DNA from: Roseobacter weihaiensis
GTDB lineage: Bacteria > Pseudomonadota > Alphaproteobacteria > Rhodobacterales > Rhodobacteraceae
NCBI RefSeq assembly: GCF_020622345.1
Contig: NZ_JACNMO010000009.1
Coordinates: forward strand, 1-64,000
Length of the DNA stretch: 64,000 nucleotides
Reading direction: 5' to 3'
Shown here: one piece after another, positions 8,435-59,923 of the stretch
Layout: each line of letters begins with the position of its first letter
Position numbering within the stretch: the stretch's first letter is position 1
Program-made: the position numbers and the translations under genes
The notes under the pieces: generated by a model
The model's database searches: none
Seen by the model: only the letters and a program-made list of their open reading frames with translations
What the model was told of the DNA's origin: nothing

Positions 8435-8435
8435 A

Positions 8436-10991: not shown

Positions 10992-11015
10992 CGACAAACC
11001 TGAAAGGAGAAAGAT

Positions 11016-11186: not shown

Positions 11187-11203
11187 GCGAGCGCGCATCC
11201 AGA

Positions 11204-11228
11204 GGGGCCGTCAGCGCGGCCCCTTTTT
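11204..11228 (+). terminator. Rho-independent terminator of the amt unit
   Basis: Perfect seven-base stem GGGGCCG / CGGCCCC with a six-base loop, followed by five T, 18 bases after the stop of the 56-residue gene. It separates amt from dmmDABC. Confidence 0.9.
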
Positions 11229-11251
11229 CCTGTCGTTTCATTTGCCCAGCA

Positions 11252-11262
11252 GGAAACTTTTT
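11252..11262. promoter_or_regulatory. Candidate operator upstream of dmmD
   Basis: GGAAACTTTTT, identical to 9449-9459, lies 75 bases before the dmmD start and is extended on its left as AGCAGGAAA, similar to the copies at 4950 and 15923. Recurrence within one pathway is the only evidence. Confidence 0.35.
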
Positions 11263-11336
11263 CTACTGACAGTCTTGATTTTGAGGCTGTCCTGAGTCTC
11301 AATCAAGGCAACAAACACATCAAGTGGGAGATCGGA

Positions 11337-12482
11337 ATGGCCATTCTTTGGAGAACATCAGCACTGGCGCAGCGCCACGCGGAAATCGGCGGCGAGCTGG
11401 AAGACTGGAATGGCATGGGCACCGCGTGGTTCTACGATCATACGCCTGAACGCGCCAAGGCCGACTACGAGGCGATCCGCACCAAGGCGGGGCTGATGGA
11501 TGTCTCGGGGCTCAAGAAATGCCACGTGGTCGGGCCCGATGCGGCCTATGTGATCGACCGGGTCACAACGCGGAACGTGGAAAAGATCATGCCCGGCCGC
11601 TCCACCTACGCCTCGATCCTGAACGATCAGGGCAAGTTCGTTGACGACTGCATTATCTACCGGCTGTCGGTGAATTCCTGGCTGGTGGTGCATGGCACCG
11701 GTACAGGCATGGAGCAACTGACAACGGTGGCCGCCGCCAAAAACTGTTCTGTTCTGTTTGACGACGACATGCATGATATGTCCCTGCAAGGGCCTGTCGC
11801 CGTTGATTTTCTGGCCAAGCACGTCGAGGGCATCCGCGATCTGGCCTATTTCGGTATGATGCAGACCAAACTTTTTGGCTGCCCCGTGATGATCTCGCGC
11901 ACCGGGTATACGGGAGAGCGCGGGTACGAGATTTTCTGCCAGCGCAAACATGCGGTGCACCTTTGGGACAACATCCTTTCGGAAGGGGCGTCGATGGGCA
12001 TCCAGCCGGTGCAGTTCAGCACGCTCGATCTGCTGCGCACCGAGAGCTATCTGCTGTTTTATCCCGGCGACAACTCCGAGACCTATCCCTTCGACGGTGA
12101 GACCTGCGGCGATACGCTGTGGGAACTAGGTCTGGAGTTCACTGTTTCTCCCGGCAAGACAGGGTTCATCGGGGCCGAGAACCATTATGCCTCCGAGGGC
12201 AAGGAACGCTTCAAGATTTACGGTGTCCTGCTGGACGGGACGACCCCCGCCGACGAAGGCGCGGACCTGCTCAAAGACGGTGAAAAGGTCGGTGTTGTCA
12301 CCTTCGGTATGTATTCGGAGCTCAACCAGCACAACGTGGGCATTGCCCGCATGCCCGTTTCTTGTGCAACGCCCGGCACCGCATTGACAGTGCGTAACGC
12401 GGACGGGGCCGAAATTGCTGCAACCGCGCAGGAAATGCCTTTCTATGACAAGGACAAGTCCATTCGAACCGCCAAGGGCTGA
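11337..12482 (+). CDS. dmmD: GcvT-like protein of dimethylamine catabolism
   Basis: A 381-residue aminomethyltransferase (GcvT) fold protein of the tetrahydrofolate-binding kind: YEAIRTKAGLMDVSGLKK, ISRTGYTGERGYEIF and HNVGIARMPV. In Ruegeria pomeroyi, dmmD stands first in dmmDABC and is needed for growth on methylated amines although not for the monooxygenase itself. It probably handles the formaldehyde or C1 unit released by demethylation via tetrahydrofolate. The order here, dmmD then A, B and C, is the same. A TMAO demethylase (Tdm) is excluded, because that enzyme is roughly twice as long with an extra N-terminal domain. Confidence 0.85.
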   Translation: MAILWRTSALAQRHAEIGGELEDWNGMGTAWFYDHTPERAKADYEAIRTKAGLMDVSGLKKCHVVGPDAAYVIDRVTTRNVEKIMPGRSTYASILNDQGKFVDDCIIYRLSVNSWLVVHGTGTGMEQLTTVAAAKNCSVLFDDDMHDMSLQGPVAVDFLAKHVEGIRDLAYFGMMQTKLFGCPVMISRTGYTGERGYEIFCQRKHAVHLWDNILSEGASMGIQPVQFSTLDLLRTESYLLFYPGDNSETYPFDGETCGDTLWELGLEFTVSPGKTGFIGAENHYASEGKERFKIYGVLLDGTTPADEGADLLKDGEKVGVVTFGMYSELNQHNVGIARMPVSCATPGTALTVRNADGAEIAATAQEMPFYDKDKSIRTAKG

Positions 12483-12527
12483 ACCGGATCAGCCCCAAGT
12501 GTGACCAGCATCAGCCAGAGGAACCCA

Positions 12528-13130
12528 ATGTCGACCTTCGCTTTTCCACCCAGCATCAAGAGCCGCCCGGTCTGGGGCAGCTTTGAGCCGCAGTCAGGCT
12601 CGGCGTACCTGTTCGTGGCCGACGCAGAGGGGGCCGAGGCCATCCTTGATCTGGCCAAGGTGGCGCCCGCGCTGATGGCGTCCGCGCATATCATCTACAT
12701 CCCCAAAGGAACCGATTTCGAAACGGCCCTGCGTGCCCTGAACCCCGCGCAGCTTTATGTCGGGCCCAGCTATGCGGCCTCCCTGCCACGGCTGCGCAAG
12801 ACGCTTGAGGATGCCAAGATGGGGCTTCAGGTGTATCTGTCGGGCAGCGAAGGGCTGATGGGACAGGCGATGCGCGAGGCGGCAGAAGCGGGCATTCCGC
12901 ACGCCGCCATCCAGACTGAGCATCGCGGGTCCGTCGCGCGGCGCATGCAATGTGTGCACTGCAAGGGCATCACCGAAGATGTGGCGGTTGACCCCTTTGT
13001 CTGCTCCCACTGCGGGTTGAACCTGTTTGTGCGCGATCACTATTCGCGCCGACTGGCCGCCTATCAGGGCGTGTGTATCGACGCCGAAGCGCCTGGATGC
13101 GTGCCGGAGCCAAAGGGGATTTACGAATGA
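12528..13130 (+). CDS. dmmA: Dimethylamine monooxygenase subunit DmmA
   Basis: A 200-residue protein of the DmmA family. The N-terminal two thirds has an alpha/beta character (SGSAYLFVADAEGAEAILDLA, LYVGPSYAASLPRLRK). The C-terminal part has two CxxC pairs (CVHCKG and CSHCGLN) that look like a small metal-binding knuckle. In R. pomeroyi DmmA, B and C together oxidise dimethylamine to monomethylamine. The start has GAGGAA before it. The stop overlaps the dmmB start as ATGA. What DmmA does chemically is not obvious from sequence; the cysteine pairs suggest zinc or iron binding. Confidence 0.83.
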   Translation: MSTFAFPPSIKSRPVWGSFEPQSGSAYLFVADAEGAEAILDLAKVAPALMASAHIIYIPKGTDFETALRALNPAQLYVGPSYAASLPRLRKTLEDAKMGLQVYLSGSEGLMGQAMREAAEAGIPHAAIQTEHRGSVARRMQCVHCKGITEDVAVDPFVCSHCGLNLFVRDHYSRRLAAYQGVCIDAEAPGCVPEPKGIYE

Positions 13131-14089
13131 GTGGCGCAGAAAAAATCGCCGTCAAGGTGACCGAGATCGTGCCGGTCAACGATCTGGTGACGCGCTTTCG
13201 GTTCGAGCGGGTAGACGGTGGCGCTTTGCCCACCTTCTCTGGCGGTGCACACACCGTGGTTGAGATGCAGGATGGTGAGATCACGCGGCTCAACCCCTAT
13301 TCGCTGATGTCCGATCCGATGGACCCATCCGCCTATACGATCTCGGTGCGGCGCGATGATAAAGGACGCGGTGGCTCGCTCTTCATGCATCAAAAAGTGC
13401 AGGTCGGGGACGAGATGACGATCAGCTACCCGGTCAACCTCTTTCCACTCGATCTGCGGGCCAAAAAGCATCTGTTTCTGGCCGGGGGCATCGGGATCAC
13501 GCCGTTTCTGGCTCAGATCAAGCAGCTTGAGCGTTTGGGGGGCCATTGGGAGCTGCATTACGCCTGCCGTACCCCGGCGCTGGGGTCTTACGTGGATGAG
13601 CTGACAGCGCATCACCCGAATGAGACCCATGTCTATTACGATGATCAGGATCAGGCGATTGACCTGAAAAACCTGCTGGATGGCCAGCCGCTGGGCACCC
13701 ATGTCTATGTCTGCGGGCCGAAAGGCATGATCGACTGGGTGCGCTCCACCGCCCAAGCCGAGGGCTGGCCGCGGGAGATGGTGCATTACGAGGAGTTCCT
13801 CGCCCCACAGCCTGGCAAACCCTTTGAGGTCAAGCTGGCTGTGTCGAACAAGGTCATCGCGGTGGGCGAGCACGAAAGCCTGCTCGAGGCGATTGAACGC
13901 GCCGGTGTCGATGCGCCCTATCTGTGCCGGGGCGGTGCTTGTGGTCAGTGCGAGACGGATGTGATCGACTATGCAGGCAAATTCATTCACCGCGATCACT
14001 GGCTGGAAGAGGAACAACAGGCGAGCGGCAAAAAGATCATGCCCTGCGTGTCACGATTTGAGGGCAGAACCCTCGTGCTGGACCGATAA
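13127..14089 (+). CDS. dmmB: Dimethylamine monooxygenase reductase subunit DmmB
   Basis: A 320-residue oxidoreductase of the phthalate-dioxygenase-reductase (VanB) type. Its domains are an N-terminal flavin-binding barrel (NPYSLMSDPMDPSAYTISVR), a nucleotide domain (LFLAGGIGITPFLAQIKQL) and a C-terminal plant-type 2Fe-2S ferredoxin with CRGGACGQC and a final cysteine in IMPCVSR. It would pass electrons from NAD(P)H through flavin and the iron-sulfur cluster to the haem subunit DmmC. Its ATG overlaps the dmmA stop, and dmmC follows after nine bases. Its position inside dmmDABC decides the partner. Confidence 0.88.
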   Translation: MSGAEKIAVKVTEIVPVNDLVTRFRFERVDGGALPTFSGGAHTVVEMQDGEITRLNPYSLMSDPMDPSAYTISVRRDDKGRGGSLFMHQKVQVGDEMTISYPVNLFPLDLRAKKHLFLAGGIGITPFLAQIKQLERLGGHWELHYACRTPALGSYVDELTAHHPNETHVYYDDQDQAIDLKNLLDGQPLGTHVYVCGPKGMIDWVRSTAQAEGWPREMVHYEEFLAPQPGKPFEVKLAVSNKVIAVGEHESLLEAIERAGVDAPYLCRGGACGQCETDVIDYAGKFIHRDHWLEEEQQASGKKIMPCVSRFEGRTLVLDR

Positions 14090-14098
14090 GGAGCCCTC

Positions 14099-15166
14099 AT
14101 GACAATTCAATTCAACGACGAGACCTTTCGCGACGATTACACCTTTCGGAATTCCGATTGGGCGCTCAAGCGGTTTCCCTTTCCGTTCCACGAAGACAGC
14201 TACATGTATTCGGTCAACATGGAGCAACACCGGGGCGGGCCCGAAGGATCGGTCTACGAAAAACGCTTTGACGTGGACGAGCATTACGTGAGCGAAATGC
14301 GCGACCGCGCGCAGGTCCTGAGTGAAGATCCTTTGCGCTGCCAGTCGCTGCCTCATATGACGCTGGCGGGCTGGGATGTGCTGGAGCTTATCATGGTCAG
14401 CAAGTCCGAGGATTACCCGGATCTTTTTGAGCTGCACCGCGATGGCAATCGCTGGCGCTGGATCAACAAGCCGCTGGGCATTGACGATACCTTCACGTTT
14501 CTGGATGAAGCGACGCTGCCCTACGGTCCACTGGAATACATCACGCGGCAGACGCAGGGCGATTTTGCCGTATTGGATCAGCGTGACGACAACCTGTGGA
14601 TGGACGCGGGCATGGTTACCACCCAGGCGGACTGGAGCCTCGATTTCGACATCGGCATGAACTTTTTCGAATGGCACGCGCCGGTGCCGATGGCGCATGA
14701 AAAGGGCATCTTTGTGCGCGCGCTCAAGTTCCTGATGAACATCCAGCAGGGCGCGCCGGCGCGTCGGCTGAACTGGACGATGACGGTGAACCCGCTACTC
14801 GACACCAGCCCCGAGAACTACCACAAATGGGGCATCCAGAAGACCACGCTCACACCTGAAAACATCGGCGCAAAACAGCATCTGCGGGTTGAGTTGCAGA
14901 CATTTTTCCGCCTGCCGAGATCGAATGCGCTGGTGTTTCCGATCCGGTGTTACCTGTGCAGTTTTCAGGATCTGATGACCGTCCCGAAATGGGGGCGGCG
15001 GCTGCACCGGGTGGTGCGCGATCTGCCAGCGGAACTGGCGACATACAAGGGCTTCATCGACAATCGTCCGCTGATGCTGGACTACCTGTCAGGTTTTGAC
15101 GACGGGCTGCCAACCTCGCCCGGCATCTGGCCGGATCTAGAGACCGAACCGCCACTGGCCAAATAG
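14099..15166 (+). CDS. dmmC: Dimethylamine monooxygenase haem subunit (heme-dependent oxidative N-demethylase, DUF3445)
   Basis: A 355-residue DUF3445 protein. This family contains the haem-dependent oxidative N-demethylases that convert secondary amines such as dimethylamine to the primary amine plus formaldehyde. Family-like segments include the aromatic-rich N-terminus and the central ADWSLDFDIGMNFFEWH and VRALKFLMNIQQGAPARRLN. AAGGAG stands eight bases before ATG 14099. It is the last gene of dmmDABC, converging on the XRE-cupin regulator gene 21 bases away. Confidence 0.86.
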   Translation: MTIQFNDETFRDDYTFRNSDWALKRFPFPFHEDSYMYSVNMEQHRGGPEGSVYEKRFDVDEHYVSEMRDRAQVLSEDPLRCQSLPHMTLAGWDVLELIMVSKSEDYPDLFELHRDGNRWRWINKPLGIDDTFTFLDEATLPYGPLEYITRQTQGDFAVLDQRDDNLWMDAGMVTTQADWSLDFDIGMNFFEWHAPVPMAHEKGIFVRALKFLMNIQQGAPARRLNWTMTVNPLLDTSPENYHKWGIQKTTLTPENIGAKQHLRVELQTFFRLPRSNALVFPIRCYLCSFQDLMTVPKWGRRLHRVVRDLPAELATYKGFIDNRPLMLDYLSGFDDGLPTSPGIWPDLETEPPLAK

Positions 15167-47042: not shown

Positions 47043-49448
47043 TCAGCCAGCTTCTTTCAGTTCAGGGTGCTGCCCGGCATCTTCCGTCATCGCGGACCAG
47101 TTCAGCTCCCCCTCATAGCGCCAGGCCATCTGTCCGCTTTCATCAAGGACGAAGAGATGCAGCCAGCGATTGTCAAACAGCGCCCGGACACCGTCGTGCC
47201 GTTTGAGAATATCGCTCATCGCCGCGCGCGGAGCTTCGATACAGACCGAGAGGCGCAGCGGGTCATGCGCGTAACCTTCGCCCTCATGTACGGATTGCCA
47301 GGGCAGACCGGCCCGCAGGATGCCCCCGTTCCCCTCGACCACGCCGATCCCGCCGGTGACATTGTGCAAGAGCTTGTTGCCTGCCCCAAAGGCCTGGGGT
47401 GCGACGGTTGACCCGTAGTATTGCAGGCTGATCCAGCTGGCCACCACCACGGGGGCCGTCATGATCAGCTCCAGCACGCCGAAATCCTTGTCCTGATGCC
47501 AGTCGTAGTCATGCAGGAAAGCGCGCCCGGCAAGGCTCTTGCCCGCCGTGCGCTGGCGGGGGGCGGCCACAAAGGCCTTGCAGCCCGCCAGCGCCCATTC
47601 GGGCCGCGTTTCGGCCCAGTCCCGGCTGCGCTGCGCGATATCCGCAGCACCCTCTGCCCGTGGCAACCGCAGGGCGCGTTCTGTGCGGGTCATCGCGCCA
47701 GCCTTGACGAACCAGTTCTCGGCCTGTTTCAGATCCGCCGTGTGATCCGCTGAGGGATGGTCGCTGGCGTAAAGCGTGATCGCATCGGTGGTGGTGTCAT
47801 GCAGCGCACCGACGAAAAGCGTATCAGCGGGAATTGCGATGCCCCGCGTCCCCAGACCCTTGCGCACCTCGGCACTGTTCAAGAGGCCTGCCAGCAGCCG
47901 GGCGTTTACCTCGCCGGAATATCCGCCACAGGCCCCGCAATGCAATCCGCTGGCAAAGGGGTTGTTGACCACATTGCCACCATGCCCCGCCACGACAACC
48001 AGCCGGGCAAAGTTGTCGGTAAAGGACATGGCCCGCAGGATGGTTTCGGCCGCATCGGTCTGTGCCGCAAGATCAAGCGCTGGTTCTAATTGTGGGGCGG
48101 GATCCTCCGGTCGGTCGTTTGGCGCGATACTCAGCGCATCCCGCACCAGCTTGGCCGCATAGATGGGCCCGGTGGCCTCGACAAAAGCAAAGGAGGAGAC
48201 CGCCGCCAGTTTGAACCGGCCCCAGGCGCGGCTGGCGCGGGCCTTGAACCGGGCGGTCTGATCCGCGTCCGGGTTATCCCCGTGCGCGGTCGACGTCACA
48301 CCGGGATTGAGAAGGACCGGCAGGCGCAGTTCCTCCACGTCAGAGGCAAACCCCTTGTGCGATGCGGTCAGGCCGAAAAAGCCCGCAAAGCCCAGTGTCC
48401 GGATGTTCGGATCTACCGCTTCGAGCGCCCGCCGAAACACCTCTGAGCGGACATCAATGCAGAAGGCTGCCTGAAGGGCCGGGCGGGTTGGCTCGGCCTC
48501 GGAGGTCGGGGTGGCAAAGGTCCGGGCCAGATCCCGCTGCACCGCGCGTTCCCAGGCCTCCTGCAGGACAGCGTCGACCACAAGGTCCGTCTGGGGCGTC
48601 AGCGGGGCTGCATGGGCGTCTTTCACCGCCTCCCAGGCCTCGGCGATCTGGTCGTGGTACTGGGCAAGTATGGCCTCTTCCCACAAAAGCCGGACCGTCA
48701 GGAGATCGGTGAGTGTCTCATCGCCGCCGCCAGCCAGTTCCGCCTGCCAGAGATGATAGCGCGCAACCTGGGCCCAGCCGCCAAGGGAAAACAACAGCTG
48801 ATGCAGATAGGTCTCAAGCGTCTGCGCGCGCAGCCCAAGCCGGCTTGAGGCCCGCGTTCGGGCCTCGCCAGCCGTATCAGGGGTTTCGCTGACAAACTGG
48901 GCAAATCCGCGCAGTCCTGCGATCTCCGGCGTGAGGTCGTGGGTCGCATACTGGCGCCAGGCATCATAGGCCCCGCGCCTGCGGGGGGCTGCCCAAAGCG
49001 CCTGACCCTGATCGAAGTACCCCGCGGCCCAGACCCCGAAGCGGTCCGCGATCATGCCGGGCCAGTCTATGCCGGAGGCTTCTGCCGCGAGATTGGCAAT
49101 GGTGGGTTGCGCCGCAGGTGTGGCTGTGGCCTTGCCCGCCAGGCGTTTGAGGTCCGCGAGGGCCGGCAGGTCGGCTGCGCTCTGCGCTTCCAAGGCGGCG
49201 GCGATATCTGCATCCGCGATTGTGCCATCATCGATCCGGGTTTTGTACCAGGCCCGCGGCATCGTGACCGGCACACCACCCACCCGAGCCAGCCGGGCCC
49301 CGGCCTCGGTCAGCGTCTCGCCGGTTTGACCCAGAAACGGGTTCACCGCAACCGACGAGGCCAAAGGCCAGACCGGCGGGATCGCGCGGGCGGCTTCGTC
49401 AATGGCTTTGCCGAGGCGGGAGGGTGAAAGCTTTGAAGGGGTCTTCAT
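47043..49448 (-). CDS. dabA: DabA, carbonic-anhydrase-like subunit of the DAB inorganic carbon pump (DUF2309)
   Basis: An 801-residue DUF2309 protein. The zinc-site motifs are present: [13 protein letters not shown] (Cys and Asp) and [20 protein letters not shown] (His and Cys), as in characterised DabA, which resembles beta-carbonic anhydrases. With the membrane partner DabB it converts CO2 to bicarbonate inside the cell, driven by the cation gradient. ATG 49448 follows AAGGAA. It is 22 bases downstream of dabB. No RuBisCO or carboxysome genes are present, so the likely purpose is bicarbonate supply for anaplerotic carboxylation. Confidence 0.87.
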
Positions 49449-49470
49449 GGAATATGTTCCTTTGCCGCGA

Positions 49471-51030
49471 TTAGGAGTGATGCCTGCTGGACCAGCCGCG
49501 CAGCAGCTTGTCGAAGACGGCGTTGGCATAAAGCCCGTTGGACAGGTGAACGCGCAGGCCTGCCGCAGCGGGGTGGTAGGCCCAGAGCGGGAACATCGCC
49601 TGTGCGACCGCCACCAGACCGAAGCTCAGCAGGGCCAGCACGATCAACGCCCATTCCAGTGGTCCGGGGGCCGGTGTGGCGGGCAAGGTGCCCTGCATCA
49701 GTCCCTCGGCCCCGGTCTGGAGTGCAAAATAGCCCACTGCCGCCGCCACCGAATAGACTGCGGTGCGTTGCGTCAGCACCCGTGGCGCCGCGTCCGCCAG
49801 ACCCTGCGCCAGCAGGTAGGCCACGCCAAAGATCAAGATCGCCCCCAATGCGACGGCCTGTGGGGATTTGTCTGCCACCCCAAAGAGAAACCCGACCACG
49901 GCATAAATCACCAGCGCGATCAGAAACGCGCGGCCCACGGCGACGCCATTGGGGATTGCCACCGGCCCCGGACGCCGGATCGTGGCCACGCCGTCCACCG
50001 CCATGCCGGAGGCCAGGAAAGCATGTGCCTTGTAAAGCGAATGCGCCACGATATGCAGCAGTGCGAGCGGAAAGAGCGCCAGACCGCATTGCAGAATCAT
50101 GAACCCCATCTGCGCCACCGTCGACCAGGCCAGCGAGGTTTTCACGGCCGATTGGGTCAGCATCACCAGCCCGCCAAAGAGCGCCGTAAACCCGCCGACC
50201 ATCACCAGAAGAGCCAGCACGGCGGGGGACAGCAGCATCACGTCTGCAAAGCGGATCAGCAGGAACCCTCCGGCGTTTATCACACCGGCGTGCAGCAGGG
50301 CGGAAACCGGGGTAGGCGTCTCCATCACTTCGGTCAGCCAGCCGTGCATCGGAAACTGGGCGGATTTCAGGATCGCCGCGATGGCCAGGGCGGCGGCGAT
50401 CCACGCAGCCTCCGGACCGCTCGCTACAATTCGCGCCGCCGCCAGAATCTCCGAGATGTCGCCTGTGCCGTAGTGGACAAACAGGGTGAGCACCGCGATC
50501 ATCAAGGCCGCATCCCCGAGCCGCGCGGTTACCCATTTCTTGCGCGCGGCTCTCTGCGCGGCCACACGTTCGGGATAATGCAGCAGGAGCTTGTGCAAAA
50601 GGATACTGGTTGCGATCCAGGCGCCGGCCAGTTGCAAAAGGTTCCCCGCGATCACCAGCAGCATGACAACGGCAAGGGTGGCACAAAGCCAGCCGGTGAA
50701 CGCGCCCTGCTGGGCTTCACCGTCCATATAGGTGGCGGCAAATCGGATCACGACCCAGCCCACGAAGGACACCAGCAGCAGCATGACGGCACTGACCGCA
50801 TCGAGTCGCGCGGAAAGCCCCATGCCGTTCAGACCCAGCAGCGGGCTGGTCGCAGGGCCGTGCGCCAGAAGCAGGACGCCCGACAGCCCAGCGACCGCGA
50901 CCGCGACAAGCGCGGCCCTCTCGACCCATTTCAGGGGTTGCAGAGGGCGCATCTGTGGGCCGCGAAAGGCCAGCAGGGCCGCCAGAATGAGGACAGCCGG
51001 TGCGAGAAAGGACAGGAGAGCGATGGACAC
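49471..51030 (-). CDS. dabB: DabB, proton-conducting membrane subunit (NuoL/MrpA-like)
   Basis: A 519-residue membrane protein of the complex I/antiporter subunit family with about thirteen helices. The proton-channel region is seen in [21 protein letters not shown], and lysines lie in broken helices ([32 protein letters not shown]). In this pairing it couples cation influx to DabA. It is the first gene of dabB-dabA on the minus strand. No LysR-type regulator, which often accompanies dab genes, is found next to it. Confidence 0.86.
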
Positions 51031-51551: not shown

Positions 51552-51872
51552 ATGAATCCGATGCAAAGCCGGTCTGCGCAGAGTCACCGCGAAACCATTA
51601 CTTTCAGGCTGCTCGGGCAGGTGGAAGCGGCTGATTTTTTCACCTGGATGGAGAGACACGCCGGCAAACTTGGCGTTGAATTCGACATGATCGAAGCGCT
51701 GCCACATCGCGTCAGCATTCGTGCAAGCGGCGCTGAAGAGATGGTTGACGCCTTTGCTTTGGCATGCAGCCTGGGCCCCCAAAGCGTCTGTGTTGAGGTG
51801 TTGCAGTTCATTGGCATGTCAGCCAATGCGCCGCGTGACGAAAAATCAGGCATTTCACGAAAAACCACGTAA
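51552..51872 (+). CDS. Acylphosphatase-like small protein without catalytic residues
   Basis: A 106-residue protein whose residues 15-90 follow the acylphosphatase pattern (ITFRLLGQVEAADFFTWMERHAGKLGV, then RVSIRASGAEEMVDAFALACSLGP, then VCVEVLQF). In true acylphosphatases the loop reads GxVQGVGFR with a catalytic arginine, and a conserved Asn follows in the next strand. Here the loop is QVEAADFF and both residues are missing. It therefore cannot work as an acylphosphatase and may be a ligand-binding version. It lies 90 bases ahead of the Rieske-protein operon in the same direction. Confidence 0.6.
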   Translation: MNPMQSRSAQSHRETITFRLLGQVEAADFFTWMERHAGKLGVEFDMIEALPHRVSIRASGAEEMVDAFALACSLGPQSVCVEVLQFIGMSANAPRDEKSGISRKTT

Positions 51873-51962: not shown

Positions 51963-52565
51963 GTGGACTGGATTGCTGTTGGATTGAGTGTGGATGTTCC
52001 TGCGGGTACTGTTGTGCCGCGCCGGGTAAATGACACCGATATGGCCATTTGGTGCAGTGCGGCGGGCAAGCTTCATGCCTGGGGTGATCGGTGCCCGCAC
52101 CGCGGCATGCGGTTGTCGCATGGGTTCGTGCGCGGCGAAACGCTGTCTTGTATCTATCACGGCTGGCAATATGGCATGGACGGTACGTGCAGCTACATTC
52201 CGGCGCATCCGCAGCTTGAGCCGCCTAAAACGATCTGCGCCAGGAGTTATGCCTGCAACGAGCAGGACCAGATGATCTGGGTGGCTTTGGCGCCGACACA
52301 GGCAAAAACACCCGACGCCGAAGGACGCCGCCCGGTCCGGTCACTGGAGATCACCCTGCCGGTCGCCAAGGTGGCAGAAGGCTTGGGCCATCCAATGTCG
52401 TCTTTGATGGTGCTGGGTGGCGTTTATGACCTGGCCGTGGCGCTGCAGCCCAGCACGCAACACAGTTGTGTCCTGCACGCATTTGCAGGAGCGGACCAGG
52501 AGCGCAAACAGGTATCGCGGCATTTGGAAAAGATGCGAGCAGAACTGGAGAGCGCAGATGCGTGA
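51963..52565 (+). CDS. Stand-alone Rieske 2Fe-2S protein
   Basis: A 200-residue protein starting at GTG 51963 with GAAAGGGG upstream. Residues 1-110 are a Rieske domain as found at the N-terminus of ring-hydroxylating oxygenase alpha subunits: Cys44-Pro-His46 (RCPHRGMRLSHG) and Cys63-x2-His66 (CIYHGWQYGMDG). The last 80 residues (SLEITLPVAKVAEGLG, HLEKMRAELESADA) are not recognised. It overlaps the next gene, an oxygenase subunit that lacks its own Rieske cluster, by eight bases (ATGCGTGA), so the two together supply what is normally one polypeptide. No reductase gene is nearby. Confidence 0.83.
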   Translation: MDWIAVGLSVDVPAGTVVPRRVNDTDMAIWCSAAGKLHAWGDRCPHRGMRLSHGFVRGETLSCIYHGWQYGMDGTCSYIPAHPQLEPPKTICARSYACNEQDQMIWVALAPTQAKTPDAEGRRPVRSLEITLPVAKVAEGLGHPMSSLMVLGGVYDLAVALQPSTQHSCVLHAFAGADQERKQVSRHLEKMRAELESADA

Positions 52566-53394
52566 AGCGGTTGACGACCATTGGTACCCGGTGGGGTTAC
52601 TGTCGGGCCTGGAGGATACGCGCAAGACATTGCTGCTGGGCCGGGAGATTGCGGTGGGGCGCAACGGTGCCGGTGTCTTTGTCCGTGACGCTGCGGGCCG
52701 GGCGTTGCCCACGGTTGCACGGTTTGGCCATCTCTGGACAAGCCCCGGCCAGCCGACCCGCGATCTCTTCACGATCCCGGAGGCAGATACGCCGGGCCGG
52801 CAACTGGTTGATGTGGGGTCTGTCCGGGTGAAATGCTCCCCCTTGCGGGCTGTTGAGAACTTTCTCGACATTGCGCATTTCCCCTTTGTGCATACGGATA
52901 TTCTTGGGGCGGAGCCGCATACCGAAGTTGAGCGTTATCAGGTGGATATCCGTGAGGAGGTGGATGAGGTCTGGGCCACGGAGGTGAAGTTTTTCCAGCC
53001 CCAGGCCGCCAGATCCGCCGAAGGTGGTATCAAGACAGAATACATGTACCGGGTGCCCGCCCCCACCTGTGCGGTGCTCTACAAGACCTGTCCACCGCGA
53101 CCGGGGGAGTGGGACGTGATCACCCTCTTTGTCCAGCCCCTGACAGAGGAATGGTGCGAGGTCTGGCCTTGGATGGCGCTTTATGATGACCAGTCCACCA
53201 TGGCTGAGATGGTCAGTTTTCAGCAGATGATCTTCATGCAGGATCGCTCGATCCTGGAAAACCAGATCCCGCGCAAACTGCCGCTCGATCCGGGCATGGA
53301 GGTGCCGACCCAGGCGGATATGACATCGGTCGCGTATCGGCGCTGGCTCAAGCGGATCGGCTACACCTATGGGGCGCAACTGGTAGCCGCATGA
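52558..53394 (+). CDS. Rieske-type oxygenase catalytic subunit without Rieske cluster (NdmC-like architecture)
   Basis: A 278-residue protein. It starts like a Rieske oxygenase (DDHWYPVGLLSGLED, LLLGREIAVGRNGAG) but the CxH and CxxH cluster ligands are gone; the region reads RALPTVARFGHLWTSPG. The mononuclear iron site is intact: Asp104-x2-His107-x4-His112 in NFLDIAHFPFVH, and Asp229 in MQDRSILENQ as third ligand. This is the architecture of NdmC in methylxanthine degradation, where the Rieske cluster comes from another protein. The partner here would be the overlapping Rieske gene. The operon's purine transport and deaminase genes suggest a purine substrate, perhaps N-demethylation. Confidence 0.8.
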   Translation: MREAVDDHWYPVGLLSGLEDTRKTLLLGREIAVGRNGAGVFVRDAAGRALPTVARFGHLWTSPGQPTRDLFTIPEADTPGRQLVDVGSVRVKCSPLRAVENFLDIAHFPFVHTDILGAEPHTEVERYQVDIREEVDEVWATEVKFFQPQAARSAEGGIKTEYMYRVPAPTCAVLYKTCPPRPGEWDVITLFVQPLTEEWCEVWPWMALYDDQSTMAEMVSFQQMIFMQDRSILENQIPRKLPLDPGMEVPTQADMTSVAYRRWLKRIGYTYGAQLVAA

Positions 53395-54002
53395 TCCTCT
53401 ACGACTATATTCTCAGCGCCAGTTGTTACCAGGTGCGCTTGATGGCGGCGCTTCTCGGGCAGCCCCTCACAACGCGGGCGGTGAACTTTCACCCCGCAAA
53501 AGAGCATAAATCGCCTGAGATGCTCAAACTGAACCCGAAGGGAACGCTTCCGGTCCTGCAAGACGGCGATCTGGTGCTGACCGAGAGCGCTGAAATCCTG
53601 CGCTATCTGACCAGGGATACGCCGGACTGGCGCGGGCAGGACGAGGTGTGGTTGTCCTTTGCAGCGGCGCTGAACGGCAGTATCGGGACGGCCCGCCTGC
53701 ACGATATCCTGAGCTACGATGCCGATATCGATGCGGTGCGCCGCGCTGGGGTGCAGCACCTGCGCCAGCTTGAGGCGCATCTGGTTGAGCAACGGTTTGA
53801 CGGGATGATCTTTCTGACCGGTCACACGCCGACCATTGCCGATATTGCCTGTTTCCCGACCACGGCTCTTGCGCCGGATGGCGGTGTCAGCCTCGATGTA
53901 TATCCCTCCATCCGCCTGTGGATGCGGGCGATCCGCTCGCTGCCCGGATTTATCGAAATGCCTGGCATCCATCGCCTGCATGAGTTGGAGGCGGCCCCAT
54001 GA
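53391..54002 (+). CDS. Glutathione S-transferase-like protein (NdmE-like position)
   Basis: A 203-residue GST. The thioredoxin-like domain (ILYDYILSASCYQVRLMAALLG, then NPKGTLPVLQDGDLVLTES) is followed by a helical domain (TPTIADIACFPTTAL). It overlaps the oxygenase gene and the deaminase gene by four bases each (ATGA). In caffeine degradation, NdmE is a GST homologue needed for assembly of the NdmC/NdmD complex. The same gene combination here makes a structural or stabilising role likely; an ordinary glutathione-conjugating role remains possible. Confidence 0.8.
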   Translation: MILYDYILSASCYQVRLMAALLGQPLTTRAVNFHPAKEHKSPEMLKLNPKGTLPVLQDGDLVLTESAEILRYLTRDTPDWRGQDEVWLSFAAALNGSIGTARLHDILSYDADIDAVRRAGVQHLRQLEAHLVEQRFDGMIFLTGHTPTIADIACFPTTALAPDGGVSLDVYPSIRLWMRAIRSLPGFIEMPGIHRLHELEAAP

Positions 54003-55384
54003 CGGCGCTTTTGCTCCGGAACTGCGACGCGATTGTGACCTCCGCCTCCGATCCGGTTCTGCACGGCCAGGATATTCTGTGCGACAACGGGGCGATCACG
54101 GCCATCGGGCCAGATCTTGACCGCGATATCCCGGCGGGCACCGACATCATCAGCGGGGCGGGCCTTTTCATCTATCCCGGTCTGGTGAACACCCACCACC
54201 ATTTCTTTCAATGCTTCGTGCGCAACCGCGCCGAGCTGGACTGGACCCGCTACAGCGTCATTGAATGGCTGGACCGGATCTATCCGGTTTTCTCGCGCTT
54301 GACCGAAGAGTGCTTCTATCACTCCTCCATTGTTGCGATGGCCGAGCTGATCAAGCACGGCTGCACCACCGCCTTCGATCATCAGTATTGCTTTCCAAAA
54401 CACGCAGGCTCGCGCATCATCGACCGTCAGTTCGAGGCGGCGGAGCTGATGGGGATGCGCTTTCATGCCGGGCGCGGTGGCAACACCCTGCCCAGATCCG
54501 AGGGCAGCACGATCCCCGACGCGATGCTGGAGACCACGGATGCCTTCATCGCCGACTGTGCCCGCGTGATCGAAGCTTACCACGATCCAGACCCGCTTGC
54601 GATGCGCCAGGTCGCCGTCGCACCCTGCCAGCCGGTGAATTGCTACCGCGAGACCTTCGTGGAATCCGTTGCACTGGCCCGCGACAAGGGCGTGATTTTG
54701 CACAGCCATGTGGGCGAGGGCGAAAGCCCGGTGATCGCGCAGGTCCATGGGATGCGCACGGTCGACTATTGTGAAAGCCTTGGTTTTGCGGGCCCCGACA
54801 CGTTCTATGCCCATGGCTGGGAATTGACGCATGATGAGCTGAGGAAAATGGCGGCCTCCGGCACCGGTGTGTCCCATTGTTCTGAGCCCGTCTATCTGGT
54901 CGGTGCGGAGGTCACGGATATCCCCGCGATGGACGCGCTTGGGGTGCGCCTGGGGTTGGGATGTGATGGCGCGGCCTCCAACGACAATTCCAACCTGATG
55001 CACTGCGTGCATTCGTCCTACATGCTGCAATGTTTGGCGGCCCGCACGCGTGATGATCCCGTGCCTGCACCTGCCGCGTTCCTGTCTTACGCGACCGAAG
55101 GCGGCGCATCTTTGCTGGGCCGCACGGATATCGGTGCGTTGCAGCCCGGCAGGGCGGCAGACCTCTTTGCCATCGACACGCGCAAGCTTGACTATGTCGG
55201 TACGCGGCATGACCCGATCAGCCTGATCGCCAAAGTGGGCATCGGCGCGGCTGTCGATCTGACCGTGATCAACGGGCGCATCGTCTGGCGCAACGGCGCC
55301 TTTCCGCATCTGGACGAGGGCGCGCTTTTTGCCGCCGCCGAAGACACACTTCACACCATACTGCCAAAAACAGGGGGACTCTAA
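53999..55384 (+). CDS. Amidohydrolase, 8-oxoguanine deaminase / TrzA family
   Basis: A 461-residue amidohydrolase-superfamily enzyme. Metal ligands are visible in GLVNTHHHFFQ, ILHSHVGEGE, YAHGWELTHDE and LGLGCDGAASND. Closest family by motif is 8-oxoguanine/isoguanine and chlorotriazine-type deaminases (COG0402). It would remove the exocyclic amino group of a (modified) purine in the cytoplasm. It lies between the oxygenase/GST genes and the purine-type transporter with overlapping or touching starts, so all act on the same imported compound. The exact substrate cannot be read from the sequence. Confidence 0.82.
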   Translation: MTALLLRNCDAIVTSASDPVLHGQDILCDNGAITAIGPDLDRDIPAGTDIISGAGLFIYPGLVNTHHHFFQCFVRNRAELDWTRYSVIEWLDRIYPVFSRLTEECFYHSSIVAMAELIKHGCTTAFDHQYCFPKHAGSRIIDRQFEAAELMGMRFHAGRGGNTLPRSEGSTIPDAMLETTDAFIADCARVIEAYHDPDPLAMRQVAVAPCQPVNCYRETFVESVALARDKGVILHSHVGEGESPVIAQVHGMRTVDYCESLGFAGPDTFYAHGWELTHDELRKMAASGTGVSHCSEPVYLVGAEVTDIPAMDALGVRLGLGCDGAASNDNSNLMHCVHSSYMLQCLAARTRDDPVPAPAAFLSYATEGGASLLGRTDIGALQPGRAADLFAIDTRKLDYVGTRHDPISLIAKVGIGAAVDLTVINGRIVWRNGAFPHLDEGALFAAAEDTLHTILPKTGGL

Positions 55385-56479
55385 ATGTCACATACCGTTC
55401 AACGCCGCACGTTTCTGAAAGGATCGCTGGCCGCGACCACCGCCATCGCCTTGCCCATGCGGGCCATCGCCGACGATGTGCTGAAAATGGGTGTGGTGCT
55501 GCCATCCCCCGAAGCTGACGTGGGCTGGTCACACACCTTGATGGAAGGCGTACGCAGCGTGCAGGAGGCTTACGGCGACAAGATCGAAGTGACCGTGCTG
55601 GAAAACATTGCCGAAGGGCCAGATGCGGACCGGATCGCCAATGGGCTTGTGGCCGACGGGAACACCGTCCTGCTCCTGGGGTCGTTCGGCTATCAGAACG
55701 GCGGTATCCAGATTGCCAAGCGCCGGCGCGATATCTCGATCATTCACGCCTCGGGCTTCATGGTCGAGCCGAACTTTGCCCCGTTCACCGCCAAATACTG
55801 GCAGGGCACCTATCTGATGGGGATGGCGGCGGCCTCTCTTACCAAGACCAAGAAGCTCGGCTGCGTCGGGGCCTTTGCGATCCCGGAACTCATCACGTCG
55901 ATCAATGCCTACATGCTGGGGGCGCAATCCGTCGACCCCGAGATCGAGATGAGTGTGGTTTGGGTCAACAGCTGGTTTGATCCGGCCTCTGAGCAAGAGG
56001 CGGCGAAAGCGCTGATTTCGCAAGGGGCCGATGTGATCTTTTCGAACGCGCAAGACACGCCGTCCGTGATCGCGGTGGCCGAAGAGGCGGGCGTTTACGC
56101 CTGGAACCTGAATTCGTCGATGAAGACATATGCGCCGTCCAAGTATCTGGGCGTTGTGGGCACCGACTGGGGACCACATTTCAAACGTCTGGTCGATGCT
56201 CATGTGGCCGGGGATTATCCGGGTGAAAACTTCTGGCTCGGGATGGAAGACGACATCGTCTTTACCGCAGACTGGAACCCGGACATTCCCGCCGATGTGG
56301 TCGCCCAGATCGAAGCGCGCCAGGCCGAGATCAAGGCCGGTACCTTCGATGTCTTTAAGGGACCGCTGACGGATCAATCGGGTTCAGTACGTGTGGCGGA
56401 CGGTGTGACCATGACGGACGGCGAAATCCTCGGCATGGATTGGCATGTCGCGGGCGTGACAACGCCGCTCCCTTCATGA
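55385..56479 (+). CDS. BMP-family ABC transporter substrate-binding protein (purine nucleoside type)
   Basis: A 364-residue periplasmic binding protein. The N-terminus has a twin-arginine-like signal (RRTFLKGSLAATTAIALPM). The mature part belongs to the basic-membrane-protein (PnrA-like) family that binds nucleosides and purines: LKMGVVLPSPEADVGWSHTL, ILHASGF-like SIIHASGFMVEPN, and VWVNSWFDPASEQEAAKAL. The start abuts the deaminase stop with no gap, and the stop overlaps the ATPase gene by ATGA. It brings the operon's substrate to the permease pair. Confidence 0.85.
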   Translation: MSHTVQRRTFLKGSLAATTAIALPMRAIADDVLKMGVVLPSPEADVGWSHTLMEGVRSVQEAYGDKIEVTVLENIAEGPDADRIANGLVADGNTVLLLGSFGYQNGGIQIAKRRRDISIIHASGFMVEPNFAPFTAKYWQGTYLMGMAAASLTKTKKLGCVGAFAIPELITSINAYMLGAQSVDPEIEMSVVWVNSWFDPASEQEAAKALISQGADVIFSNAQDTPSVIAVAEEAGVYAWNLNSSMKTYAPSKYLGVVGTDWGPHFKRLVDAHVAGDYPGENFWLGMEDDIVFTADWNPDIPADVVAQIEARQAEIKAGTFDVFKGPLTDQSGSVRVADGVTMTDGEILGMDWHVAGVTTPLPS

Positions 56480-57975
56480 GAAAACAGGCCCTTTTGACCC
56501 TGTCGGGCGTCTCCAAACGCTACGGCACGGTTCAGGCCAACCAGGCGATCGACCTTGAGGTGAAATCGGGGTCGATCCACGCCATTCTGGGGGAGAATGG
56601 CGCCGGGAAATCCACCTTGATGAAGCTGATCTACGGGGTGGAGCATCCCGACGACGGCAGCATCGCGTGGAACGGTGCACCCGTACAATTGTCCCGCCCC
56701 TCCGACGCGCAAGCTTTGGGGATCGGCATGGTGTTTCAGCATTTTTCGTTGTTTGAGACGCTCAGCGTGGTTCAGAACGTGTCATTGATGGTGCCCGGCC
56801 GACCGGCTGAGATCGCGACAAAGATTGGCGATCTGGGGCGCAAGTTTGGACTGGTGGTGGACCCAGATGCGATGGTGCACACCCTGTCGGTCGGCGAACG
56901 GCAGCGGGTCGAAATCATCCGCTGCCTGCTGCTGAACCCCAAGCTTCTGATCCTCGATGAGCCCACATCGGTCCTGCCGCCGCAAAGTGTCAAACTGCTG
57001 TTTGAGACGTTGCGCAAGTTGCAGGCCGAGGGCACGGCGATCCTCTTTATCTCGCACAAGCTCGAAGAGATCCGCGCGCTCTGTGACGAGGCGACCGTCT
57101 TGCGCGATGGCAAGGTGACGGGCCGCGTGGACCCGCGGGCCCACAGCGCGCGCGACTTGGCGCAAATGATGATTGGTCGCGACATGCCGCATCTGGCGGT
57201 GTCAAACAGCGCGCAGCCTGGCGAGGTCCGATTGCGTTTGCACAATCTGAGCCATCCGCGCGCAACGCAGTTTGGTACGACACTCACAGACGTTAACCTG
57301 GACCTGCGCGCGGGTCAGGTCATTGGCATTGCGGGGATCTCTGGCAACGGCCAGCAAGAGCTGGCAGCTCTCATCTCGGGCGAGCTGCGCGCGCGTAAGC
57401 CTGAGATGGTCCAGATCATGGGGCAAGCGGTTGGCCGTCGCGGCCCGATGCATCGCCGCGCGCTTGGGTTCACCTTTGTGCCCGAAGAGCGGCTGGGGCG
57501 CGGGGCCGTGCCCGAGATGTCGTTGGCCGATAACAGCCTTTTGACGGCGCACGGGCAGGGCATGCTGCGGGGAGGGTTCATCAAGCGGCGGGTGGAGCAG
57601 AGCTTTACCCGCCGCTGTATGGAAGACTTCGATGTGCGCACCTCCGGCCCGGACGCGGAGGCCGGAGCGCTTTCTGGCGGCAACCTGCAAAAATTCATCC
57701 TGGGCCGCGAGATCATGCTGGCCCCCGACGTGATGCTGGTATCGCAGCCCACATGGGGGGTCGATATCGGGGCCGCCACAGCGATCCGGCGCCGTCTGAT
57801 CGAGATGCGGGACAACGGCGCCGCGATCCTGGTGATTTCCGAAGAACTCGAAGAACTGTTCGAGATTTGCGACATCCTCCATGTCCTTCACGAAGGGCGG
57901 CTGTCCACCGGCCTGCCCGCCGCCGACACCACCGCCGAAGAGGTCGGGGCCTATATGATCGGGGCAAGGCTGTGA
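56476..57975 (+). CDS. ABC transporter ATP-binding protein, two nucleotide-binding domains
   Basis: A 499-residue tandem ATPase. First domain: Walker A GENGAGKST, signature LSVGERQRVEI, Walker B LLILDEPTSVL. Second domain: degenerate Walker A GISGNGQQEL, signature LSGGNLQKFILGREI. This is the usual form for sugar/nucleoside (YufO/NupA, RbsA-like) importers, in which only one site hydrolyses ATP well. ATG 56476 overlaps the binding protein stop, and the stop overlaps the first permease start (GTGA). Confidence 0.88.
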   Translation: MRKQALLTLSGVSKRYGTVQANQAIDLEVKSGSIHAILGENGAGKSTLMKLIYGVEHPDDGSIAWNGAPVQLSRPSDAQALGIGMVFQHFSLFETLSVVQNVSLMVPGRPAEIATKIGDLGRKFGLVVDPDAMVHTLSVGERQRVEIIRCLLLNPKLLILDEPTSVLPPQSVKLLFETLRKLQAEGTAILFISHKLEEIRALCDEATVLRDGKVTGRVDPRAHSARDLAQMMIGRDMPHLAVSNSAQPGEVRLRLHNLSHPRATQFGTTLTDVNLDLRAGQVIGIAGISGNGQQELAALISGELRARKPEMVQIMGQAVGRRGPMHRRALGFTFVPEERLGRGAVPEMSLADNSLLTAHGQGMLRGGFIKRRVEQSFTRRCMEDFDVRTSGPDAEAGALSGGNLQKFILGREIMLAPDVMLVSQPTWGVDIGAATAIRRRLIEMRDNGAAILVISEELEELFEICDILHVLHEGRLSTGLPAADTTAEEVGAYMIGARL

Positions 57976-59042
57976 AGTTGCGCCTGGTCAGACGCGACGC
58001 CGCGTCTCGTCTGGCAATGTTCGGCGCGCCGGTGCTGGCGCTGATCCTCACCTGCCTGACCAGCCTGATCCTCTTTGCCCTCTTGGGCATCCCTGCGGGC
58101 AAGGCGCTGCATGCGCTTCTGCTCAAACCGTTCCTCAGTTGGTACAGCTTTTCCGAAGTGCTGCTGAAAATGGCCCCGCTGCTGCTGATTGCGCAGGGGC
58201 TGGCCATCGGGTTCCGCGCCAATGTGTTCAACATCGGCGCCGAGGGGCAATTCATCATCGGCGCGATTTGCGCCTCTGCCTTCCCGGTCTTTTACCCGGA
58301 CGGAAATCTGCCCTTCATGCTGCCTGCCATGATTGTCGCAGGCGGGCTCGGCGGCATGGCCTACGCAGGGATCGCGGCGGGGTTGCGGACGCGGTACGGA
58401 GCCTCGGAAATCCTCGTGACGCTGATGCTGAGCCTGATCGCGGTCCAAATCCTGAACTACCTGCTACTGGGGCCGTGGAAAGACCCGCGGGGCTTCAATT
58501 TTCCGCAAACGGTGATGTTCCCGGGCAACGCGCTCCTGCCGCTCCTGTTCGAGAATGTCCGGCCGAATATCTCCCTGATCTTTGCGCTGCTTGCGAGCCT
58601 CTTTGCCTATCTGATGATGGAGCGGCACTTTCGGGGCTACCAGCTGCGCACAGCAGGCCTCGCGCCGAAAGCCGCGCTTTATGCGGGGTTCAGTGCGCCG
58701 CGCATGATCTGGCTCAGCCTGGCGCTCAGTGGGCTGGCAGCCGGGATCGCAGGGGCCAGCGAAGTTGCAGGGCCTTTGGGCCAGTTGCAACGATCTGTCG
58801 CCACCGGCTACGGTTATGCGGCAATCATCGTGGCCTATGTCGGCGGTTTGCGTCCCTTTGGTATTGTCGCCTCAAGTTTCCTGATCTCGGTGCTGTACAT
58901 CGGCGGGGACAGTGCGACTGTCTCTGCAGGTCTGCCCGTCGCGGCGGTCGAGGTGTTCCAAGGTATGCTGCTGTCCTTCTATCTTCTCACCTTCACGTTG
59001 ATCCGGTTCAGGGTACACCTTGACCGAGAGGCAACGGCATGA
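57972..59042 (+). CDS. ABC transporter permease (YufP/NupB-like)
   Basis: A 356-residue permease of the branched-chain/sugar/nucleoside class. It has about eight to nine helices and the family stretch GFRANVFNIGAEGQFIIGA, with FRGYQLRTAGLAPKAALYAG as the cytoplasmic loop that contacts the ATPase. The start is GTG 57972, overlapping the ATPase stop; an upstream open frame is only shadow. It pairs with the following permease. Confidence 0.87.
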   Translation: MKLRLVRRDAASRLAMFGAPVLALILTCLTSLILFALLGIPAGKALHALLLKPFLSWYSFSEVLLKMAPLLLIAQGLAIGFRANVFNIGAEGQFIIGAICASAFPVFYPDGNLPFMLPAMIVAGGLGGMAYAGIAAGLRTRYGASEILVTLMLSLIAVQILNYLLLGPWKDPRGFNFPQTVMFPGNALLPLLFENVRPNISLIFALLASLFAYLMMERHFRGYQLRTAGLAPKAALYAGFSAPRMIWLSLALSGLAAGIAGASEVAGPLGQLQRSVATGYGYAAIIVAYVGGLRPFGIVASSFLISVLYIGGDSATVSAGLPVAAVEVFQGMLLSFYLLTFTLIRFRVHLDREATA

Positions 59043-59923
59043 GCGCCGTTGAATTCCTGCTGGCCGGGACACTTGCTGCGGCCTTGCCTCTCCTGCTGGC
59101 GGCGTTGGGGGAAATGGTGGTGGAGAAGACGGGTCTGCTGAACCTCGGGCTGGAAGGGATGATGGCTGTCGGTGCGGCCATTGCCTTTATCTGTGTCTAC
59201 CACACGGGTGCGCATGTTCTGGGGTTTATGGCCGCGGCCATCGTTAGCGCGATTCTGGCGATGGTCTTTGCCTTCCTCGTTATCTTGGTCAAGGCAAACC
59301 AGGTCGCGGCAGGTCTGGCGATTGGGGTTCTTGGGCTGGGGCTGTCCGCGCTTTTCGGCAAGACTTACGAAAGCCTGACCATTTCCGGGCTGCCGGAATA
59401 CGGCCTGCCGCTCTTGTCGCATATCCCGCTGATTGGGCCGACCTTGTTGACACAGGATATTGTTGTCTGGTTAGCGGTCATCGGGACGATAGCGTTGTGG
59501 TATGTGCTCAACAAAACCAAGTTGGGGCTGATCATCACGGCGGTGGGCGAAAATGCCGAAGCGGCCCGCGCGATCGGCTATCCGGTGGCGGTGATACGGT
59601 GTGCTGCGGTGGCCTTTGGCGGCACGATGTGCGGATTGGCGGGGGCGTATGCGTCAACCGTTTACACTCCGCTTTGGGCCGATGGGATGATCGCCGGGCG
59701 TGGCTGGATTGCGTTGGCGTTGGTCGTGTTTGGCACCTGGCAAACCGGAAGGGTCGCCTTCGGAGCGCTTCTCTTTGGCATCTTGTCATTGGGAGAACTC
59801 ACGGCACAGGCCATTGGCGTGGCCATCCCATCGCAGGTGCTTTCAAGCTTGCCGTATCTTGTCACGATCTTGATGCTTGTCGTGATTTCCCGCCATCAGT
59901 TCCGGGCCAGTAAGAGGCTTTGA
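59039..59923 (+). CDS. ABC transporter permease (YufQ/NupC-like)
   Basis: A 294-residue permease, partner of the preceding one: TGLLNLGLEGMMAVGAAIAF near the start and LGLIITAVGENAEAARAIGY as the ATPase-contact loop. Its ATG overlaps the stop of the first permease (ATGA). It is the last gene of the operon that starts with the Rieske protein at 51963. Together the four transport genes form a complete purine/nucleoside-type importer. Confidence 0.87.
   Translation: MSAVEFLLAGTLAAALPLLLAALGEMVVEKTGLLNLGLEGMMAVGAAIAFICVYHTGAHVLGFMAAAIVSAILAMVFAFLVILVKANQVAAGLAIGVLGLGLSALFGKTYESLTISGLPEYGLPLLSHIPLIGPTLLTQDIVVWLAVIGTIALWYVLNKTKLGLIITAVGENAEAARAIGYPVAVIRCAAVAFGGTMCGLAGAYASTVYTPLWADGMIAGRGWIALALVVFGTWQTGRVAFGALLFGILSLGELTAQAIGVAIPSQVLSSLPYLVTILMLVVISRHQFRASKRL

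Follow-up and report, generated by a model that had tools for sequence, protein, structure and literature searches.

A reductase-free operon with a detached Rieske protein, related to the N-demethylase NdmCDE, in Roseobacter weihaiensis

The usual picture of a Rieske oxygenase is a single chain that carries both the electron-entry cluster and the active-site iron. We analyzed a stretch of 64,000 nt from Roseobacter weihaiensis (contig NZ_JACNMO010000009.1, positions 1 to 64,000; hereafter the window) that holds an operon in which these two centers are encoded by separate, overlapping genes. They are followed by genes for a glutathione S-transferase (GST)-like protein, an amidohydrolase, and a BMP-type ATP-binding cassette (ABC) importer. 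The operon is a reductase-free, detached-Rieske variant of the N-demethylase NdmCDE with an extra conserved adjoining gene. It probably encodes a split-Rieske N-demethylase system for an N-methylated aminopurine, with a reductase encoded elsewhere. No description of such a system was found in the open-licence literature searched, where absence is not proof of absence in print.

Judged by sequence, the Rieske–oxygenase–GST trio is homologous to the caffeine 7-N-demethylase NdmCDE, as originally proposed. We compared it with the relatives at three loci (L010, L011, and L012) rather than with the enzyme sequences of Pseudomonas putida CBB5. The oxygenase is 47–48% identical to the putative NdmC of a Paraburkholderia caffeinilytica plasmid (47.8% over 276 aa), whose gene shares one run with those for two NdmA/B-like oxygenases, an NdmD-like reductase, and a GST, as well as with formaldehyde-detoxification genes; this species comes from tea plantation soil and, judging by its name, degrades caffeine. 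Residues 2–200 of the Rieske protein align with the first ~235 residues of the L012 NdmD-like protein (28% over 234 aa), and with the L011 protein only residues 3–121 match (37.5%). The GST is 39–43% identical to those adjoining NdmC/NdmD-like genes at the three loci and is the counterpart of NdmE. NdmCDE of P. putida CBB5 is described as a 7-methylxanthine N7-demethylase, which removes the N7-methyl group, and the first reported Rieske oxygenase with the Rieske domain split off, there fused to a reductase; homologs are named in Sinorhizobium, Mesorhizobium, and Klebsiella (PMC4408171). The window shares with it the Rieske-less oxygenase, the Rieske domain on a separate polypeptide, and the GST-like partner. 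However, its Rieske protein is free (200 aa), no reductase is fused to it or adjacent in the operon, and an acylphosphatase-fold gene, an aminopurine-type deaminase, and a BMP importer are added. Homologs of the Sinorhizobium/Mesorhizobium/Klebsiella type (L011, L012, and L014) belong to the same oxygenase family, with a BMP-type importer beside L011 and L014, but have a Rieske–reductase fusion and no acylphosphatase-like gene.

In a scan of 84,980 species, each represented by a single genome, at least 564 encoded relatives were identified, of which the best 80 were kept. In the alignments of the window with these 80, the Rieske protein ligands C44, H46, C63, and H66 are invariant (81/81 rows), and the same holds for D104, H107, H112, and D229 of the oxygenase. 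The original prediction had put the Rieske cluster on the first of the two overlapping genes and these four residues in the iron site on the second. This stands, except that we take H107, H112, and D229 to be the iron ligands and D104 to be the electron-bridging Asp. The oxygenase has no Rieske Pfam match, yet a profile comparison by hhalign matches its first 92 residues to five single-chain Rieske oxygenases at a probability of 96.9 (E 1.8e-10), with a gap spanning both ligand loops; the Rieske-like N-terminus without any cluster ligand had been foreseen. Among eight family oxygenases aligned full length, those of the fused systems have a similarly short N-terminus. The gutted N-terminus is therefore common to the whole oxygenase family, and only the free Rieske protein is special.

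In all 80 relatives, the Rieske gene lies directly upstream and the GST gene directly downstream of the oxygenase gene, with gaps of at most 26 nt. The Rieske and oxygenase genes thus go together throughout, in the gene order first noted in the window. Overlaps of 4 nt occur at 63 of the 80 Rieske–oxygenase junctions and 70 of the 80 oxygenase–GST junctions, these distances depending on the start codons chosen in the analysis. Such conservation bears on the idea that the detached Rieske protein is a relic, the oxygenase being served by another Rieske protein or ferredoxin and the operon being a purine importer and deaminase with decaying redox genes. The operon is indeed without a reductase, and the Rieske protein varies in its C-terminal part (its alignment columns average 45% identity over the full length). 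Decay is nevertheless very improbable: the cluster and iron ligands are invariant, the three genes show no internal stops in the 80 loci and retain translational coupling, and 11 genomes with two oxygenases, described below, retain one close free Rieske protein. We also considered the C-terminus as a worn-down catalytic domain, which would make the pair two full oxygenases having lost opposite halves. We do not claim this, because its match to the oxygenase family profile reaches a probability of only 10.6 (E 0.003) over 33 columns; against the single-chain oxygenases, it covers one column.

The eight genes from the Rieske gene onward are all open and run in one direction, with overlaps of 8, 4, 4, 0, 4, 4, and 4 nt in order (table 1). 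Open frames and Pfam domains thus confirm the predicted operon of eight overlapping or touching genes. Plasmid pRL10 of Rhizobium johnstonii 3841 carries these eight genes in this order.

Table 1. Genes of the R. weihaiensis operon and the gene upstream of it
Product	Position	Strand	Length (aa)	Remarks
Acylphosphatase-fold small protein, without catalytic Arg	51552..51872	+	106	Stop 90 nt before Rieske start; PF00708 family profile
Free-standing Rieske [2Fe-2S] protein, counterpart of NdmD N-terminal part	51963..52565	+	200	GTG start; PF00355 1.9e-21
NdmC-family mononuclear-iron oxygenase, gutted ligand-free Rieske N-terminus	52558..53394	+	278	PF19112 VanA_C 9.4e-22
GST-like protein, NdmE-like	53391..54002	+	203	GST_N/GST_C
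Amidohydrolase, divergent branch of 8-oxoguanine/AtzB deaminase group	53999..55384	+	461	PF01979
BMP-type (PnrA-like) binding protein, Tat signal, AtzT-like purine pocket	55385..56479	+		PF02608, PF10518
ABC importer ATPase	56476..57975	+		PF00005 in two stretches; ATG start overlaps BMP stop
Importer permease 1	57972..59042	+		GTG start; PF02653 (BPD_transp_2) 8.8e-35
Importer permease 2	59039..59923	+		PF02653 (BPD_transp_2) 5.6e-30

The first gene of table 1 had been overlooked in the original prediction, and a homolog lies upstream in 78 of the 80 relatives. Of 42 family members scanned, 38 match PF00708 (E ≤ 0.1), the strongest at 2.9e-10; the protein of the window scores 0.027, below the curated cut-off. 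The family profile matches the acylphosphatase 1v3z (E 2.7e-6), but the consensus aligned with it is without both the Arg and the Asn that we take to be the catalytic residues. No Arg occupies the aligned catalytic column in any of 79 rows, three having one a column further on. The protein may serve in binding or docking. Among 138 loci with an NdmC-type oxygenase, sorted into types by similarity searches, an acylphosphatase-like gene accompanies 110 of 122 scored as split and none of 15 scored as fused; the remaining locus is without a Rieske protein. The 12 split-scored loci with no detected copy include L142, L144, and L241, the last a near relative of the window (81% oxygenase identity). 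Because the set contains non-independent loci (in some cases a single genome listed under two identifiers) and the groups largely follow the tree, the link between this gene and the split Rieske protein is an association by clade.

The importer following the deaminase gene is complete, as predicted, with PF02608, PF00005, and two PF02653 domains. Its best NCBIfam models are those of a "putative B6" ABC transporter set, and all four proteins are below the cut-offs. The closest solved relatives of the binding protein, which was found in 75 of the 80 loci, are 3s99 (E 1.9e-76; adenine modelled) and AtzT (6pi5; E 3.8e-76). AtzT is reported to have retained guanine when purified, with an affinity of 110 nM, and also binds 2-hydroxyatrazine (2.2 uM) and ammeline (0.36 uM) (PMC6834077). 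The AtzT guanine contacts Ser97, Phe98, Glu165, and Trp194 are present in all 76 rows of the window's arrangement (type A), and Asn218 in 73 of 76, the window among them. In contrast, Tyr45 is replaced by Trp and Asn220 by Asp in all 76, and Asn169 by Ser in 71; the window has the three replacements. The predicted purine uptake is thus supported by the closest solved relatives and by most pocket residues. In ten fused-type importers sampled, the guanine-contacting Glu is Asp in nine and Glu in one (L010), and it is Ser in six type-B importers (defined below). This guanine-type Glu is therefore kept in the window's branch, although not there alone.

The amidohydrolase lies in the 8-oxoguanine deaminase/AtzB group, its closest characterized deaminase group, but it scores 365.1 bits against the 8-oxoguanine deaminase model NF006055, whose cut-off is 532. 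Its earlier assignment to the 8-oxoguanine-deaminase family therefore holds for the group and not for the model. An HxH motif, two His, and an Asp, presumably the metal and catalytic residues of amidohydrolases, align with 7ww2 and 3hpa. The motif HC[PS][EQ]P[VI]YLVG is found in 72 of 73 deaminase rows, and HC[PS]EPVYLVG stands where the characterized group has HCPCSNMRLASG. The gene was found in 71 of the 80 loci, where, as for the other gene counts, some contigs end inside or near the operon. Guanine deaminases and adenine-deaminase homologs are recurrent neighbors of more distant relatives. A guanine deaminase above the model cut-off occurs in L013, L091, and L224, an adenine-deaminase homolog below the cut-off in L013, and an 8-oxoguanine deaminase above the cut-off beside the relative in L215. 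The importer pocket, the deaminase group, and these purine deaminases together point to an N-methylated aminopurine as the substrate.

The compound that is demethylated or dealkylated might instead be an N-heterocycle other than a purine, for example an s-triazine, pterin, or nicotinic alkaloid. AtzT itself binds two triazines, the 7ww2 chain is named both 8-oxoguanine deaminase and hydroxydechloroatrazine ethylaminohydrolase, the window amidohydrolase is related to it and to triazine hydrolases, and the best-matching solved oxygenases are SxtT/SxtDIOX. We consider this improbable, since purine deaminases recur beside the more distant relatives and the 80 closest copies, unlike a herbicide plasmid, are spread over many soil, plant, and water Rhizobiales and Rhodobacterales, among which Rhizobium, Mesorhizobium, and members of the Rhodobacteraceae (for example Marivita) predominate.

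A second use of a purine has somewhat more in its favor, although it too is unlikely. The oxygenase could be a C8-hydroxylase converting guanine to 8-oxoguanine, which the deaminase would turn into urate, a molybdenum-free route like that of HpxDE. HpxD, a name from plasmid annotation, is a subunit of the molybdenum-cofactor-independent xanthine hydroxylase and likewise a Rieske oxygenase acting on a purine. The deaminase group and the guanine-contacting Glu of the binding protein (76/76 rows) agree with such a route, and HpxD-annotated proteins of Pantoea belong to the same broad family. However, they are only 28–30% identical to the oxygenase, which is far closer to NdmC. The deaminase falls below the 8-oxoguanine deaminase cut-off and does not have the HCPCSNMRLASG motif, whereas the model-passing enzyme lies beside another relative (L215). 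The genome also carries xdhB of xanthine dehydrogenase, above the cut-off. Formaldehyde dehydrogenase (FrmA) cuts both ways. It is found beside none of the 80 closest relatives, for which flanks of up to 10 kb were inspected, as C8-hydroxylation would have it; yet it occurs in 6 of 15 fused-NdmD loci, and in 2 of 41 split loci outside the best 80. In L145, a gene run ends at the contig end with a cut copy (TIGR02818, 545.2 bits against a cut-off of 543.95); a similar run in L227 is without it. N-demethylation is favored over generic purine oxidation because this gene adjoins several of the more distant relatives. In this respect, we narrow the original prediction of a pathway for the uptake and oxidation of a purine or N-methylpurine: the uptake of a purine is supported, N-demethylation is preferred to generic oxidation, and the substrate remains conjectural.

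Several observations weigh against an N-demethylase for an N-methylated aminopurine. No result fixes the position of the methyl group. At the positions of Q222 and F226, which we take to set regiospecificity in NdmA/NdmB, NdmA-like enzymes of L010 have N/F and NdmB-like ones Q/L. The Q/F pair of the window recurs in all three NdmC examined from clusters that contain an NdmA/B-like gene, which speaks faintly for N-demethylation. The pair says little, however, and is not diagnostic, being more frequent than any other state across the family and found also in a single-chain oxygenase of Mycetohabitans. The Asp at AtzT position 220 and the Ser at 169 mean that the ligand may not be plain guanine, although Asp at 220 is also found in the 3s99 alignment. 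The deaminase was not found at 9 of the 80 loci, one of which (L053) lies on a contig that stops before the gene would be reached. Besides being absent from the 80 closest loci, formaldehyde dehydrogenase has no intact copy above the TIGR02818 cut-off of ~544 in this genome, where the best full-length match scores 218 bits. Four pieces of such a gene (~40 residues, 43–44 bits) lie on contigs C26, C39, C30, and C15, three of them at contig starts, and may reflect an assembly gap at a repeated gene. Finally, no reductase could be assigned to the Rieske protein.

The operon contains no reductase gene, and the loci of the 80 relatives contain a single reductase-family gene (L042). To this extent the predicted location of the reductase elsewhere is borne out. 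In this genome, however, searches with NdmD-type reductases revealed no obvious dedicated one; they matched a DmmA-domain reductase (13073–14089), the reductase portion of a protein of 1073 aa (contig C2), and, weakly, C79. Among 22 genomes with a free Rieske gene directly beside the oxygenase and GST genes, that of the window being one of them, a match at E ≤ 1e-10 exists in 21 and is lacking in one; in six, the matches are only weak (best E >1e-20). A single dedicated NdmD-type partner is therefore unlikely, and none common to the 22 genomes emerged.

Two of these reductase matches lie in other contexts. The first belongs to a run at 11337–15166 (+) that looks like a dimethylamine monooxygenase cluster, with a protein that we read as GcvT-like, the DmmA-domain ferredoxin reductase, and a haem-dependent oxidative N-demethylase alpha-like protein (14099–15166). 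The second (L101, 3955–7176, –) resembles, by its sequence, a fusion of a reductive dehalogenase with an NAD(P)H/2Fe-2S reductase; the reductase match recurs in frames of >1000 aa in G018, G1206, G1446, and G1476. Upstream of the operon, at 47043–51030 (–), two genes read, by sequence only, like the DabA (DUF2309) and DabB subunits of an inorganic-carbon transporter.

We infer complex formation, N-demethylation, the substrate, the role of the small protein, and the source of electrons, and propose the following scheme for the N-demethylase. The BMP importer would bring the base in. The separate Rieske protein would dock on the oxygenase where the latter's own Rieske subdomain was deleted, and electrons would pass from it through Asp104 to the mononuclear iron held by His107, His112, and Asp229. 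The iron would activate O2 and hydroxylate the N-methyl group, releasing formaldehyde and the demethylated purine. The GST-like protein may hold the Rieske protein and the oxygenase together, as proposed for NdmE, and the acylphosphatase-fold protein may be an accessory subunit of the detached-Rieske form, perhaps docking the external reductase. Before or after demethylation, the amidohydrolase would take off the exocyclic amino group, yielding (methyl)xanthine, from which the xanthine dehydrogenase of the genome could continue. The likeliest substrate would be 7-methylguanine, a product of RNA turnover. It is our best guess because NdmCDE removes an N7-methyl group, and its prospects, provided that the system is such an N-demethylase, are about even.

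Within the genus of the window, 2 of 19 genomes, this one included, encode a close full-length oxygenase, and 2 more have weak partial matches only. The operon is therefore an accessory trait in the genus. In a sample of the phylum, 27 of 398 genomes have a match at E ≤ 1e-20, single-chain oxygenases included. At 1e-40, matches were found in 8 of 385 genomes of the class sample and in 6 of 369 of the class of G436, and at 1e-60 in 42 of 199 and 11 of 198 genomes of two family samples. Two loci of viral contigs gave short 47% matches.

Besides type A, five arrangements are distinguishable. Type B loci have one acylphosphatase-like/Rieske/GST set, mostly with an adenine-deaminase homolog. Two oxygenases usually lie at a distance of kilobases from it, in many cases next to a guanine deaminase. 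Large type-B-like clusters with a purine-type importer, in many cases a guanine deaminase, and usually two NdmC-type oxygenases occur in L215–L223, L231, L232, L140/L141, and L013. In type C (L145 and L227), genes for the Rieske protein, the oxygenase, the GST, a separate reductase, the importer, and the acylphosphatase-like protein form one run in that order, which speaks for the N-demethylase reading. Type D has the fused NdmD. Type E is represented by L142, where a 418-aa frame (8104–9360, –) reads as a Rieske domain fused to a plant-type 2Fe-2S ferredoxin, with no FMN or NAD domains; it adjoins genes for an NdmC-type oxygenase and a GST, and is possibly an intermediate between the free Rieske protein and NdmD. 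Type F comprises single-chain oxygenases beside BMP importers (L146–L152, of which six out of seven have a guanine-deaminase-like gene, and L015, whose importer is annotated). In L144, a Rieske domain in a 627-aa frame (10131–12011, –) lies beside genes for an NdmC-type oxygenase, a GST, and FrmA.

The phylogeny was built from 76 rows, 9 of them single-chain outgroup rows, drawn from 81 that had themselves been thinned from 158 by identity; four long rows were left out and the split rows thinned. A mostly fused clade (21 fused rows and 4 scored as not fused, L142 and L144 among the latter; support 92/70) stands beside an all-split clade (42 rows, 83/46). These support values are too weak to decide the order of fusion and separation. 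In 11 genomes with two NdmC-type oxygenases each, whole-genome searches for a free Rieske protein gave one match at E ≤ 1e-15 in ten; the eleventh has, besides a strong match, a weak partial one (39%, 88 residues) within a frame of 367 aa. Both oxygenases of such genomes may use the single free Rieske protein.

Taken together with the window, the related loci show further ways of arranging the same electron path: free Rieske protein and free reductase, a Rieske–ferredoxin fusion (one locus), and full NdmD. A broader, tentative view, which we hold to be less probable than the N-demethylase itself, is that the Rieske cluster is here a detachable, shared subunit. A module of the Rieske, GST-like, and acylphosphatase-fold proteins would serve one or more cluster-less oxygenases and be charged by any general reductase. 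The surrounding operons would then amount to a widespread and so far undescribed salvage route for methylated guanines from RNA turnover in soil and marine Alphaproteobacteria. The genomes with two oxygenases and one Rieske protein make the modular cluster directly testable, and a free Rieske protein would lend itself to mix-and-match biocatalysis. Should the substrate prove to be a methylated guanine, these operons would supply the genes behind what becomes of a common product of RNA turnover.

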